Of a stretch of 64,000 bases of DNA, positions 59,838 through 64,000 are shown piece after piece. How positions within the stretch are numbered: position 1 is the stretch's first letter; every line of letters begins with the position of its first letter. The notes beneath the pieces are model-generated. The model did not search any database, had not been told where the DNA came from, and saw only the letters and a program-made list of their open reading frames with translations. The stretch comes from Neisseria leonii (GTDB lineage Bacteria; Pseudomonadota; Gammaproteobacteria; Burkholderiales; Neisseriaceae): assembly GCF_028776105.2 (NCBI RefSeq), contig NZ_CP145606.1:558001-622000 (forward strand). The letters run 5' to 3'. The position numbers and the translations under genes were made by a program.

Positions 59838-61376
59838 ATGACCGCCACACAACAACGCGCCGAACTGCACCGCCGTATCTGGCAGATTGCCAACGAAGTC
59901 CGAGGATCTGTGGACGGCTGGGACTTTAAACAATACGTTTTGGGTGCATTATTCTACCGTTCTATCAGCGAAAACTTCGCCGCCTATTTCAACGATGAAG
60001 AAACCGATTATGCCTCCCTGCCCGACAGCGTCATTACAGACGGCATCAAAGAAGATGCCGTCAAAACCAAGGGCTATTTCATCTATCCGAGCCAATTATT
60101 TGAAAACATCGTCAAAACCTCGCACCAGAACGACAACCTGAACACCGATTTAAAAGCCGTTTTCGACGCTATCGAATCCTCCGCCCAAGGCTACGAATCC
60201 GAGCGCGACATCAAAGGCCTGTTTGCCGATTTCGACACCACATCCAACCGCCTGGGCAATACGGTTGCCGAAAAAAGCCGCCGCCTGGCAGCCGTATTGA
60301 AAGGCGTGGCGGAATTGGATTTCGGCCGTTTTGAAGACAATCAGATTGATCTGTTCGGCGACGCCTACGAATTTTTGATTTCCAACTATGCGGCCAATGC
60401 AGGCAAATCGGGTGGCGAATTCTTCACACCGCAAAACGTTTCCAAACTCATCGCCAAACTCGCCACCCACGGACAGAGCGAAATCAACAAAATCTACGAT
60501 CCCGCCTGCGGCTCGGGCAGCCTGCTGCTGCAGGCAAAAAAACAGTTTGACAGCCATATTATCCAAGACGGCTTCTTCGGGCAGGAAATCAACCATACCA
60601 CCTATAACCTTGCCCGCATGAATATGTTCCTGCACAACATCAACTACGACAAATTCGACATCGCGCTCGGCGATACCCTGACCAGTCCGCAATTCGGCGA
60701 TGGCAAACCCTTTGATGCCATCGTCTCCAATCCACCCTATTCCATTAACTGGGTCGGCTCGGACGACCCGACACTAATCAATGATGAGCGTTTTGCCCCT
60801 GCCGGAGTATTGGCTCCGAAATCCAAAGCCGATTTCGCCTTTATCCTGCACGCATTAAACTATCTCTCCGCCCGCGGCCGCGCCGCCATCGTTACCTTTC
60901 CCGGTATTTTCTACCGCAGCGGTGCCGAGCAGAAAATCCGCAAATATCTGGTAGACAACAACTATATCGAAACTGTGATCGCCCTTGCACCCAATCTGTT
61001 TTTCGGTACATCGATTGCCGTCAATATTTTGGTGCTGGCAAAAAACAAACCCAACAACCACAGCATCCAGTTTATCGATGCAGGCAAGCTGTTCAAAAAA
61101 GAAACCAACAATAATATCTTAACCGACGAACATATCGATAAAATTGTGCAAACCTTCGCCGACAAAAGCGAAACCGCCCATTTCAGCCGCAATGTGGACA
61201 ATCATGAAATTGCCGAAAACGGCTATAATCTTGCCGTTTCCAGTTATGTAACCCCCGAAGACACCCGCGAAATCATCAATATTGACGAACTCAACGCAGA
61301 AATCCGCCACACCGTCGCCAAAATCGACACCCTGCGCCAAAGCATCGATAAAATCATCGCGGAGATTGAAGCGTGA
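59838..61376 (+). CDS. hsdM: type I restriction-modification methyltransferase subunit HsdM
   Basis: A 512-residue N6-adenine DNA methyltransferase subunit. The SAM-binding motif [10 protein letters not shown] is at 221-230 and the catalytic NPPY is at 298-301 (SNPPYSINW). The N-terminal helical domain (residues 1-160) matches EcoR124-type (IC) HsdM. The C-terminus is a coiled coil for contact with HsdS. AGGAG precedes the ATG. The stop overlaps the next gene's GTG start (GTGA). It should form an M2S complex with the HsdS forms downstream. Confidence 0.97.
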
Positions 61377-62374
61377 GCCTGATTTTATACACCACCTCAG
61401 ACGGTATCGCCCAAGTTGCTTTGCAGCAGTTTGACGAGCAAGTATGGCTGACGCAGGCAGATATGGCCGAACTTTATCAAACCAGCAAACAAAATATCAG
61501 TAAGCACATCAAAGCCATATTTACCGAGCAAGAGTTATCGGAAGCGGCAACTGTCAACCATCAGTTGACAGTTCAAAACGAAGGGGGGCGCAAGATTAAC
61601 CGCAAAATCGCCTACTATTCGCTTCCCCTGATTATTGCCGTGGGCTACCGTGTCCGTTCCGCACGCGGAACGCAATTCCGTCAATGGGCCACAGAACGCC
61701 TGAGCGAATACTTGCGCAAAGGCTTTACGCTGGATGACGAACGCCTGAAAGGAACGGGTGGCGGCGATTATTGGAAAGAGCTGCTTGACCGCATCCGCGA
61801 CATCCGCTCATCAGAAAAAGCCCTGTACCGCCAAGTGTTGGATTTATACGCAACCAGCCGCGATTACAATCCAAACAGCACAGAAAGCCGGCAATTTTTT
61901 GCCGCCGTGCAAAACAAACTGCATTACGCCGTCAGCGAACAAACTGCTCCCGAACTGATCTACCGCCGCGCCGACAGCAGCAAAGACTTTATGGGTTTAA
62001 CCACTTTTAAAGGCTCGCTGCCCACGCTGGACGAAGCCAAAATTGCCAAAAACTATCTGACCGAAGACGAACTCTTCCGCCTGAACCGGCTGGTATCCGC
62101 CTTCTTCGATCTTGCCGAAATCAAGGCACAAGAGAAAACCCCCATGTATATGCGCGACTGGCTGGCAGAATTGGACAAATTTGCAGGCATCTACGGCAAA
62201 GGCGTATTACAGGGCGCAGGCAGCATCAGACGTGAACAGGCAGATCAAAAAGCCGAACGCGAATACCGTGCCTATGAAGCGCGCACCTTGTCGCCAATAG
62301 AGCACAGCTATTTGGACAGCATCAAGGCATTAGAAAAAACAGCAGTCAAACACAGTAAAGCACAGAAAAAATAG
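61373..62374 (+). CDS. rhuM: RhuM-family protein
   Basis: A 333-residue protein of the RhuM family, first named from a Salmonella pathogenicity island. The family often sits inside type I restriction loci. The N-terminal part ([25 protein letters not shown]) is a helix-turn-helix-like KilA-N/ANT-type segment, followed by [20 protein letters not shown] and a long C-terminal helical region. Its biochemical role is unknown. The GTG start overlaps the hsdM stop by four bases, so it is translated with hsdM. A DUS hairpin lies immediately after it. Confidence 0.88.
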
Positions 62375-62375
62375 C

Positions 62376-62412
62376 GTTCAGGCCGTCTGAAAACGGTTCA
62401 GACGGCCTGAAC
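62376..62412. terminator. DUS hairpin between rhuM and hsdS
   Basis: GTTCAGGCCGTCTGAA and TTCAGACGGCCTGAAC with a five-base loop, starting one base after the rhuM stop. It could limit transcription into hsdS or mark a transferred cassette boundary. Confidence 0.65.
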
Positions 62413-62435
62413 ACAAAACCGACAGGAAACAGACA

Positions 62436-63050
62436 ATGAAACCCAATCCGATTATGGAAAAACTCATCAATACAGGCGTACTTGCCCGTCATGCCGAAAC
62501 GGTGAAATGGAAGACTTTGGGGGAAGTGGCGGATTATGAACAGCCAACAAAATATCTGGTCAGCTCAAACCATTATGATGATAAATATCCAATCCCAGTT
62601 TTAACCGCAGGCAAAACCTTTATTTTGGGTTATACCGACGAAACCTACGGCGTTTATCCCGCTTCACACAGTCCCGTGATTATTTTTGATGATTTCACAA
62701 CCGCGAATAAATGGGTGGATTTTGACTTTAAAGCCAAATCGTCAGCAATGAAGATGATCACAGCAAAAGATGAAAATGTCGCTTTATTGAAATATATTTA
62801 TTACTGGCTCAATACACTACCTAACGAGCAGACAGATAATGATCACAAACGGCAATGGATTAGCAATTATGCCAAAAAATTAATCCCCATTCCCCCACTG
62901 GAAGCGCAACGTGAAATTGTCCAAGTACTGGACAATTTCACGGAGCTTACAGCGGAGCTTACAGCGGAGCTTACAGCGCGTAAAAAACAATACGAATATT
63001 ACCGCAACCTTTTGTTAGATTTTGGCAATGGCATGGGGGGGGGGCAATAG
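62436..63050 (+). CDS. hsdS: type I specificity subunit HsdS, first half (TRD1), ended by the G10 tract
   Basis: A 204-residue half-length specificity subunit. It holds one target recognition domain (about 25-150), the conserved LIPIPPLEAQREIVQVLDNF segment, three ELTA repeats (170-181) and the helix RKKQYEYYRNLLLDF. The G10 tract (63035-63044) adds GMGGGQ and then a TAG stop. A full HsdS has two TRDs. With nine or twelve G, reading would continue into the second half to give 446 residues. Truncated HsdS of about this size is functional as a dimer in the gonococcal NgoAV system, so this form may be active with a palindromic site. Confidence 0.9.
   Translation: MKPNPIMEKLINTGVLARHAETVKWKTLGEVADYEQPTKYLVSSNHYDDKYPIPVLTAGKTFILGYTDETYGVYPASHSPVIIFDDFTTANKWVDFDFKAKSSAMKMITAKDENVALLKYIYYWLNTLPNEQTDNDHKRQWISNYAKKLIPIPPLEAQREIVQVLDNFTELTAELTAELTARKKQYEYYRNLLLDFGNGMGGGQ
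62943..62978 (+). repeat. three perfect 12-bp repeats in hsdS (ELTA units)
   Basis: GAGCTTACAGCG is repeated three times in frame and encodes ELTA-ELTA-ELTA. In the EcoR124/EcoDXXI family the same TAEL unit, present two or three times, changes the length of the non-specific spacer in the recognition sequence. Confidence 0.92.
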
Positions 63051-63777
63051 CCTTTTTCTTTCAGGCAGCCTGACAACAGGTAGGGTGGGCATCCCTCCCC
63101 ACCATCAAGCAGCAGAAGATATTGCCATGGAGGGCAAGCATGCCCGCCCTACCCGCAACCCGTTTTCAGACGGCATCGAAGTGGTTTGGAAGACGTTGGG
63201 GGAAGTGGGTAAACTTATTCGCGGAAACGGTATGCAGAAAAAAGACTTTACCGAAACAGGTGTTCCCGCCATTCATTACGGACAAATTTACACCTATTAC
63301 GGATTTGAAACCCATAAAACCCTTTCTTTTGTTTCGTCTGAATTGGCAAAGACCTTGAAAAAGGTCAATCACGGCGATGTTGTGATTACCAACACCAGCG
63401 AAAATCTTGAAGATGTGGGAAAAGCGGTACTCTATTTGGGAGAAAAACAAGCCGTAACAGGCGGTCATGCCACTATTTTCAAACCCAATCCTGAAATGAT
63501 TTTGGGCAAATATTTTGTTTACTGTACACAAAGTGCTTTTTTCGCAGCAGGAAAACGTAAATATGCCAAAGGGACAAAGGTGATTGATGTTTCTGCAACC
63601 GATATGGCGAAAATCAAAATCCCCATCCCCCCGCTCGAAACCCAAACCCGCATCGTCGCCATACTGGATAAATTCGACGCGCTTACCCATTCCATTTCAG
63701 ACGGCCTGCCACGCGAAATCGAATTGCGGCAAAAGCAGTATGAATACTACCGCGAGCGGCTGCTGACTTTTGCGTAA
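63028..63777 (+). CDS. hsdS: type I specificity subunit HsdS, second half (TRD2), out of frame with the first
   Basis: An open frame of 249 codons from ATG 63028 (another ATG at 63127). After a 50-residue linker it contains a full second TRD (VVWKTLGEVGKLIRGNG start), then KIPIPPLETQTRIVAILDKF and the C-terminal IELRQKQYEYYRERLL helix. It overlaps the first half by 23 bases and reads through the G10 tract in the +1 frame, so deleting one G joins the two. No good ribosome site precedes 63028, so in the present state it may be silent. The linker includes a REP-like repeat and two DUS. Confidence 0.85.
   Translation: MAWGGGNSLFLSGSLTTGRVGIPPHHQAAEDIAMEGKHARPTRNPFSDGIEVVWKTLGEVGKLIRGNGMQKKDFTETGVPAIHYGQIYTYYGFETHKTLSFVSSELAKTLKKVNHGDVVITNTSENLEDVGKAVLYLGEKQAVTGGHATIFKPNPEMILGKYFVYCTQSAFFAAGKRKYAKGTKVIDVSATDMAKIKIPIPPLETQTRIVAILDKFDALTHSISDGLPREIELRQKQYEYYRERLLTFA
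63035..63044 (+). repeat. G10 homopolymer, candidate phase-variation tract
   Basis: Ten consecutive G residues near the 3' end of the first hsdS half. G9 or G12 fuses the halves, G10 stops at TAG (63048-63050), and G11 would stop at the TGA within the downstream DUS-like site. Confidence 0.92.
63060..63071 (-). repeat. DUS of a different dialect (AGGCTGCCTGAA)
   Basis: On the minus strand this reads AGGCTGCCTGAA, the form reported for Simonsiella, differing at two bases from the AG-DUS used elsewhere in the window. The plus strand is 11/12 to the Kingella form. Confidence 0.55.
63080..63152. repeat. REP-like inverted pair inside the hsdS linker
   Basis: Starts GTAGGGTGGGCATCCC and ends GGGCAAGCATGCCCGCCCTAC cut into arms of about 24 and 21 bases, inverted, 73 bp in total. 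The GTAG...CTAC ends match the REP layout, but the palindrome differs from the GTCGGAT family. The frame through it has no stop codon. Confidence 0.6.
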
Positions 63778-63805: not shown

Positions 63806-64000
63806 ATGGGCAGCACGCTGACCGAAATTGCAGAACAACTTAAGGATGCAAACAAAAAAGTCCATTTGATTTATGCGTTCAACGGCACGGGCAAAACACG
63901 TCTGTCGCGTGAGTTCAAACGGCTGATTTCCCCTAAAACGGACGACAACACAGAAAATAAGGATGGGGAAGATGCAAGCACTTTGACCCGGAAGAAAATT
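63806..64000 (+). CDS. prrC: PrrC-like anticodon nuclease, N-terminal part (gene runs off the window end)
   Basis: Only the first 65 codons are present. The start [14 protein letters not shown] and the Walker A segment [18 protein letters not shown] (GTGKT at 27-31) resemble the N-terminal NTPase domain of PrrC, recalled from family knowledge rather than checked. PrrC cuts tRNA-Lys at the anticodon when a phage disables the type IC enzyme that holds it silent, and prrC lies between hsdS and hsdR in the known loci. That is exactly this position. A GAGGAA ribosome site precedes the ATG. Another AAA ATPase is possible, since the nuclease domain is outside the window. Confidence 0.7.

Follow-up and report, generated by a model that had tools for sequence, protein, structure and literature searches.

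Does a run of ten Gs between two half-genes allow Neisseria leonii to retarget a type I restriction-modification enzyme, and what would such retargeting mean beside a gene for a suicide nuclease? We addressed this question in a window of 64,000 bases (G000:C1:558001-622000), drawn from a single-contig genome of 2,206,085 bases. Our main reading, to which we assign a probability of roughly three in four, is that the locus is a type IC operon whose specificity gene can be switched when a G tract at the junction of its two half-genes slips, the G10 state specifying a palindromic site and the fused state an asymmetric one.

A type IC operon with a divided specificity gene

The gene order, read from the window and the sequence beyond its end, is hsdM-rhuM-hsdS1/hsdS2-prrC-hsdR. 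hsdM (59838..61376, plus strand) encodes a type IC methyltransferase subunit of 512 residues (TIGR00497, 654.7 bits; PF02384 and PF12161) with DPACGSG and NPPY motifs. Its end is overlapped by the start of a rhuM-family gene of 333 codons (61373..62374, plus strand; PF13310, 348.6 bits; PADLOC candidate models PDC-S05). Downstream of hsdS, prrC starts at 63806 on the plus strand and continues past the window end at 64000 to G000:C1:622984, encoding a protein of 392 residues in the tRNA anticodon nuclease family (PADLOC PrrC, 460.6 bits, E 8.8e-139). It is followed by hsdR (L004 6977-10078; 1033 residues; PF12008, EcoR124_C). HsdM and HsdR belong to the EcoR124 (type IC) family and retain their motifs, and the TIGR00497 and EcoR124_C matches, the M-S-R order and the TAEL repeats in the S helix together place the operon in type IC.

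Two uptake-like sequences lie face to face between rhuM and hsdS, forming an inverted repeat at 62376..62412 (the fold of 62375-62435 has an energy of -31.4 kcal/mol, z -7.3). This strong hairpin is terminator-like on the minus strand and possibly an attenuator on the plus strand. Given its position between rhuM and hsdS, the hsdS-prrC-hsdR genes may be transcribed apart from hsdM. The uptake word AGGCCGTCTGAA occurs 55 times within the window; of the other markers considered in placing the species, Glyco_hydro_2_C gave no match.

The initial annotation described two half-genes, each with one target recognition domain (TRD) and one conserved helix, and both halves indeed pass the cut-off of 22 bits for Methylase_S (PF01420). 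Half 1 (62436..63050, plus strand; 204 residues; 42.1 bits; PDB 7bst, E 6.5e-90) contains TRD1, of the EcoR124I type, and the first conserved helix. Half 2 (63181..63777, plus strand; 61.7 bits) contains TRD2 and the second conserved helix and is read through only in the other phase. Between them, at 63035..63044 on the plus strand, we confirmed the tract of ten Gs, at the seam of half-S frames offset by one base as in an NgoAV-like gene. The TTG at 63022 listed as the start of half 2 is upstream of the tract and no more than an ORF-finder start.

At the current tract length of G10, half 1 is the complete product; half 2 lies in a frame shifted by one base that stays open as far as 63777. On the existing DNA, reading on from the tract meets a stop at 63048-63050 (the present phase), 63071-63073 or 63775-63777, depending on the frame. 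By arithmetic, the second of these again gives a half-length protein, of 212 residues, and the third one of 446 residues. These stop positions bear out the lengths of 204 residues at G10 and 446 in the other phase that had been proposed, and they imply that a half-length subunit (204 or 212 residues) is made in two of three phases and the 446-residue chain in one.

When the window was shuffled 100 times with its dinucleotides preserved, 15 of the shuffles contained a G10 tract, so the argument for a switch is the position of the tract and not its length. No other run of more than six Gs or Cs is present within the window. G runs stand at the same seam in eight of ten related Neisseria loci (this one included), six of them uninterrupted, which argues against chance. 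Across the whole genome, this tract included, a hand count over both strands gave 19 separate G tracts of at least nine; the published mean numbers of such tracts are close, at 18.2 in gonococci and 19.4 in N. lactamica.

The tract length is known from one assembly of the species, and variation was seen only between the loci of related species. Homopolymers are error-prone, and a miscount in the assembly would mean that the cells are actually in the fused phase. We consider this very unlikely: the remainder of the locus is open, and the gene would in any event keep its switchable design, as in its relatives.

The tract in related loci

With a threshold of E 1e-150 or better, the HsdM lineage was found in 10 of 46 genomes of the genus, and a search with half 1 returned the same ten. 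Counting a run as uninterrupted when at least seven Gs stand at the seam, six of the ten loci carry an uninterrupted tract, two an interrupted run and two none. Both states of the gene are represented. It is split in the present genome (G10), in G015 and G019 (both G8) and in G022 (G7), and fused in G011 (G10) and G040 (G9); G015, which shares the junction of N. gonorrhoeae DSM 9188, we take to be that species and its locus to be NgoAV. An interrupted run accompanies a split gene in G009 and a fused one in G037, and G029 and G044 are full length with no tract. A G7 run in L159 lies within TRD2, off the seam, and was left out of these counts. Since two of the ten loci are free of the tract and two more have it interrupted, the switch is dispensable.

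The wider set consisted of 80 HsdM relatives, kept from at least 579 confirmed in GTDB species genomes. A run of at least seven Gs follows a conserved helix in five of these 80 listed relatives (two from Haemophilus haemolyticus and one each from a gonococcus, a Prevotella MAG and Histophilus somni). Among the same 80 loci (of at least 579), the helix pattern had two sites in 44 and one in 26, and the remaining 10 had none; with a looser pattern, 75 of the 80 had a plus-strand helix and the five tract loci were the same. The two H. haemolyticus loci (L007 and L009) pair G10 with 10 TSEL units and G8 with 4, and they are 97.8% identical over a 632-base stretch that includes the tract, with lower identity elsewhere. 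This difference is a natural sign of slippage in both repeats.

Another pair, L143 and L144, agrees at 98.6% of positions as far as the tract region and at 99.6% past TRD2, with near-identical prrC genes and flanks. The two nevertheless carry different TRD2s, and one is split where the other is fused. A TRD2 that differs between otherwise near-identical loci suggests that the seam also serves as a point of TRD exchange. In the genome of N. leonii itself, S-domain searches gave three matches, namely the two halves described here and one fragment; no spare cassettes were seen, and we rejected a shuffling (recombination) system for this locus. The fragment, at L005 3751-5122 (G000:C1:187750-189121), encodes 111 residues and is followed by what by eye is a second rhuM-like gene. 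Together they appear to be what is left of another type I system.

The linker of this gene is unusually long. In the fused form an extra-long stretch (63045..63184, plus strand) places 163 nt between the conserved helix and TRD2, compared with 58-61 nt in six other Neisseria loci, 105 nt in G040 and 18 nt in three tract-free relatives. The fused protein would have a linker of 54 residues; the linker has approximately 20 residues in six Neisseria loci with a tract, 35 residues in G040 and 6 in the three relatives that lack one. As this exceeds every relative measured, the fused protein might work poorly. The linker holds a hairpin-forming inverted repeat of GGTAGGGYGGGCAT at 63079-63092 and 63140-63153, with no further copy of that word in the genome.

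We also asked whether the linker insert is a genomic repeat and rejected this idea; apart from the insert itself, the 40 of 561 candidates that were scored included just two short hits, 23 and 28 bases long, which match its uptake-like end. A word similar to GGTAGGGYGGGCAT sits 3' of hsdS2 in the Neisseria locus L090. The facing copies and the L090 word suggest a small mobile or repeat element.

Such an insert raises the alternative that the tract no longer switches, leaving the strain fixed in the half-length state with half 2 as a relic, perhaps because the insert has spoiled the fused form. The 163-nt linker with its unique hairpin-forming insert fits this explanation, as do the interrupted, perhaps locked, tracts in two of the ten Neisseria loci. 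The coding sequence points the other way, with an uninterrupted G10 and a half 2 that has no stop across TRD2 and its helix. TRD2 is moreover up to 80% identical to TRDs of relatives, some of them in uninterrupted full-length S genes, and fused forms persist among relatives. On balance we find a fixed state quite unlikely and favor a gene that can still switch; for this strain, we infer that the tract slips.

Predicted recognition sites of the two forms

TRD1 and the TRD1 of EcoR124I share 97 of 132 residues (73%), and from this identity TRD1 is predicted to read GAA. The conserved helix aligns to that of EcoR124I without gaps through two TAEL units and has equal length. Seven EcoR124I loop residues are absent ahead of the helix in half 1, and their loss could alter the spacing. 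The EcoR124I subunit itself differs in being a single chain with a short linker ahead of TRD2. Residues 1-215 of EcoR124I dimerize, recognize GAAN7TTC and are active both as methyltransferase and as endonuclease (PMC2877798, PMC3320862); this truncation is among the material reviewed in PMC3874165. Half 1 has the features of such a half-length S of the EcoR124INT type, with 204 residues, an N-terminal TRD followed by a helix, and a TRD of the GAA type as judged by identity. EcoR124INT itself is laboratory-made.

Given the identity of TRD1 to that of EcoR124I and the known motif of the half enzyme, we predict GAAN7TTC for the G10 state. In the G10 state and in the third frame, only the N-terminal half would be made. 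Two copies would dimerize, together with HsdM, and in the present state the enzyme would most likely methylate GAAN7TTC. This palindrome occurs 13 times within the window, a count that is neutral as to the predicted motif. In the other phase, a single chain carrying both TRDs would recognize an asymmetric site composed of GAA, a spacer of approximately 6 bases and the half-site of TRD2. TRD2 is 80% identical to the TRD of an uninterrupted full-length S gene (L034) and 58% identical to the one in G011, a Neisseria genome whose S is naturally fused.

The conserved helix also contains three exact 12-bp repeats of GAGCTTACAGCG (62943..62978, plus strand), which encode its TAEL-type ruler. Two and three copies of the corresponding repeat in EcoR124I and EcoR124II go with spacers of 6 and 7 (PMC3874165). 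Repeat copy number would tune the spacer of the recognition site. The proposal of a half-length dimer alternating with a fused subunit, also made in the initial annotation, is well supported by homology, by the common position of the tract and by what has been published on NgoAV and on truncated EcoR124I and EcoDXXI S subunits. The change in methylation, and with it a phasevarion in this strain, would follow from such alternation.

Both forms might instead be present in one cell with no change in the DNA, through transcriptional or ribosomal slippage on G10, or half 2 might be translated separately and pair in trans. Co-expressed halves of EcoDXXI are described as rebuilding wild-type activity (PMC3874165), and one gonococcal strain probably uses an elongated hsdS2, in the account of PMC9577141. 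An in-frame ATG at 63127 with a weak purine stretch upstream could serve as the start of half 2. This codon is, however, 76 nt beyond the stop of half 1 with no clear ribosome site seen, and the NgoAV hsdS2 of FA1090 is reported to encode no active protein (PMC9577141). We therefore regard coexistence of both forms as unlikely and continue with switching by a change in tract length.

Comparison with NgoAV and other Neisseria systems

The initial annotation likened the design to that of gonococcal NgoAV. The likeness stands for the design: the G tract follows the first conserved helix and marks the same seam, the phase decides between a half-length and a fused S, tetrapeptide repeats occur in the helix, and HsdM and HsdR are approximately 75-77% identical. 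It does not extend to the NgoAV locus itself, which has other flanking genes, other TRDs and LEAT repeats where TAEL repeats are found here. The window stretches that match the gonococcal locus are 68-77% identical. A different gene stands in the position of rhuM, and rhuM gave no match at that locus. PrrC gave no match in the gonococcal genome, either in the search that included G015 or in a second one, whose empty answer had no positive control of its own. Orthology with NgoAV was rejected on the differing flanks and TRDs; identity to the gonococcal counterpart is 36% for half 1 and approximately 75% for HsdM.

Published work on NgoAV shows what such a design can do. The half-length and fused forms have different motifs, and one added G was without apparent effect in vitro (PMC9577141). 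The same paper lists tract lengths for 92 gonococcal strains and presumes about half of them to be inactive; it also claims a phasevarion for M.NgoAV. In a set of 25 strains, the poly-G tract and the LEAT repeats jointly affect the motifs (PMC6789123). By description, the gene is also like the N. lactamica hsdS (NEIS2362, named NgoAV there), which has a G tract and a 12-bp repeat; its G9 tract changed to G10 or G11, and the 12-bp repeat changed as well (PMC6232127).

An anticodon nuclease beside the switch

The prrC gene is intact and encodes a putative anticodon nuclease, with an ABC ATPase domain, the catalytic triad and linkage to type IC genes. Its R304, E308 and H346 do not vary in any of the 31 aligned rows (one of them its own) and correspond to the Arg-x3-Glu...His triad described for E. 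coli PrrC and RloC (PMC2610378). The arrangement resembles EcoprrI-PrrC (prrABCD), in which prrC likewise stands between the hsdS and hsdR genes of a type IC operon and the triad is kept; the literature covered makes no mention of a slippage tract in EcoprrI.

How often do such tracts accompany PrrC? At a threshold of E 1e-60 or better, PrrC was found in 10 of 83 genomes of the family, and two of these ten loci, both in the genus Neisseria (G000 and G011), have a G tract at the seam. The other eight showed no coding-strand run of at least seven Gs in the sequence fetched, in some of which the first helix was unseen. In G042, the third Neisseria genome with a match, both the PrrC (E 2.6e-42) and the HsdM next to it (39%) are distant. 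Within the family of the H. haemolyticus genome G083, presumably the Pasteurellaceae, PrrC is present in 18 of 140 genomes, and six of these 18 loci have 8 or 9 Gs at the seam (L143, L144, L149, L151, L152 and L158). No tract was found in the 25 PrrC-bearing loci of the wider set (80 listed of at least 579 HsdM relatives). One prrC, in L128 (G056:C11), is a decayed gene with 13 internal stops in the match. We found no description joining a phase-variable S subunit to PrrC in the literature covered, and other sources could hold one.

An EcoprrI-type enzyme keeps PrrC latent (PMC3014915, PMC3710099), and E. coli PrrC is not activated unless the DNA also offers cognate sites that are unmodified (PMC3014915). 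In N. leonii, TRD1 and its helix precede the tract, which means that the half S survives any slip. Such a placement suits an operon in which the enzyme restrains PrrC. We infer that the enzyme controls PrrC here as well. TRD1 and the helix would be kept at every tract length, and the enzyme that restrains PrrC would never be lost; only its target would change. Because activation requires unmodified sites, a slip could transiently prime PrrC. A further proposal, that slips expose the unmodified new-specificity sites of the cell's own chromosome and thereby prime PrrC, and that the recurring combination of a G-tract HsdS with PrrC in Neisseria and in the family of Haemophilus is a selected design, we hold to be doubtful. 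If it is true, cells that have just switched would show hypersensitivity to the anti-restriction factors of phages.

With this locus, specificity switching of the gonococcal type gains a further Neisseria lineage, for which a definite motif, GAAN7TTC, is predicted. Its half-length HsdS would be a natural counterpart of the laboratory-made half enzyme. Such switches repeatedly adjoin PrrC, and this raises the question of how a cell retargets an enzyme whose disturbance can trigger a suicide nuclease.
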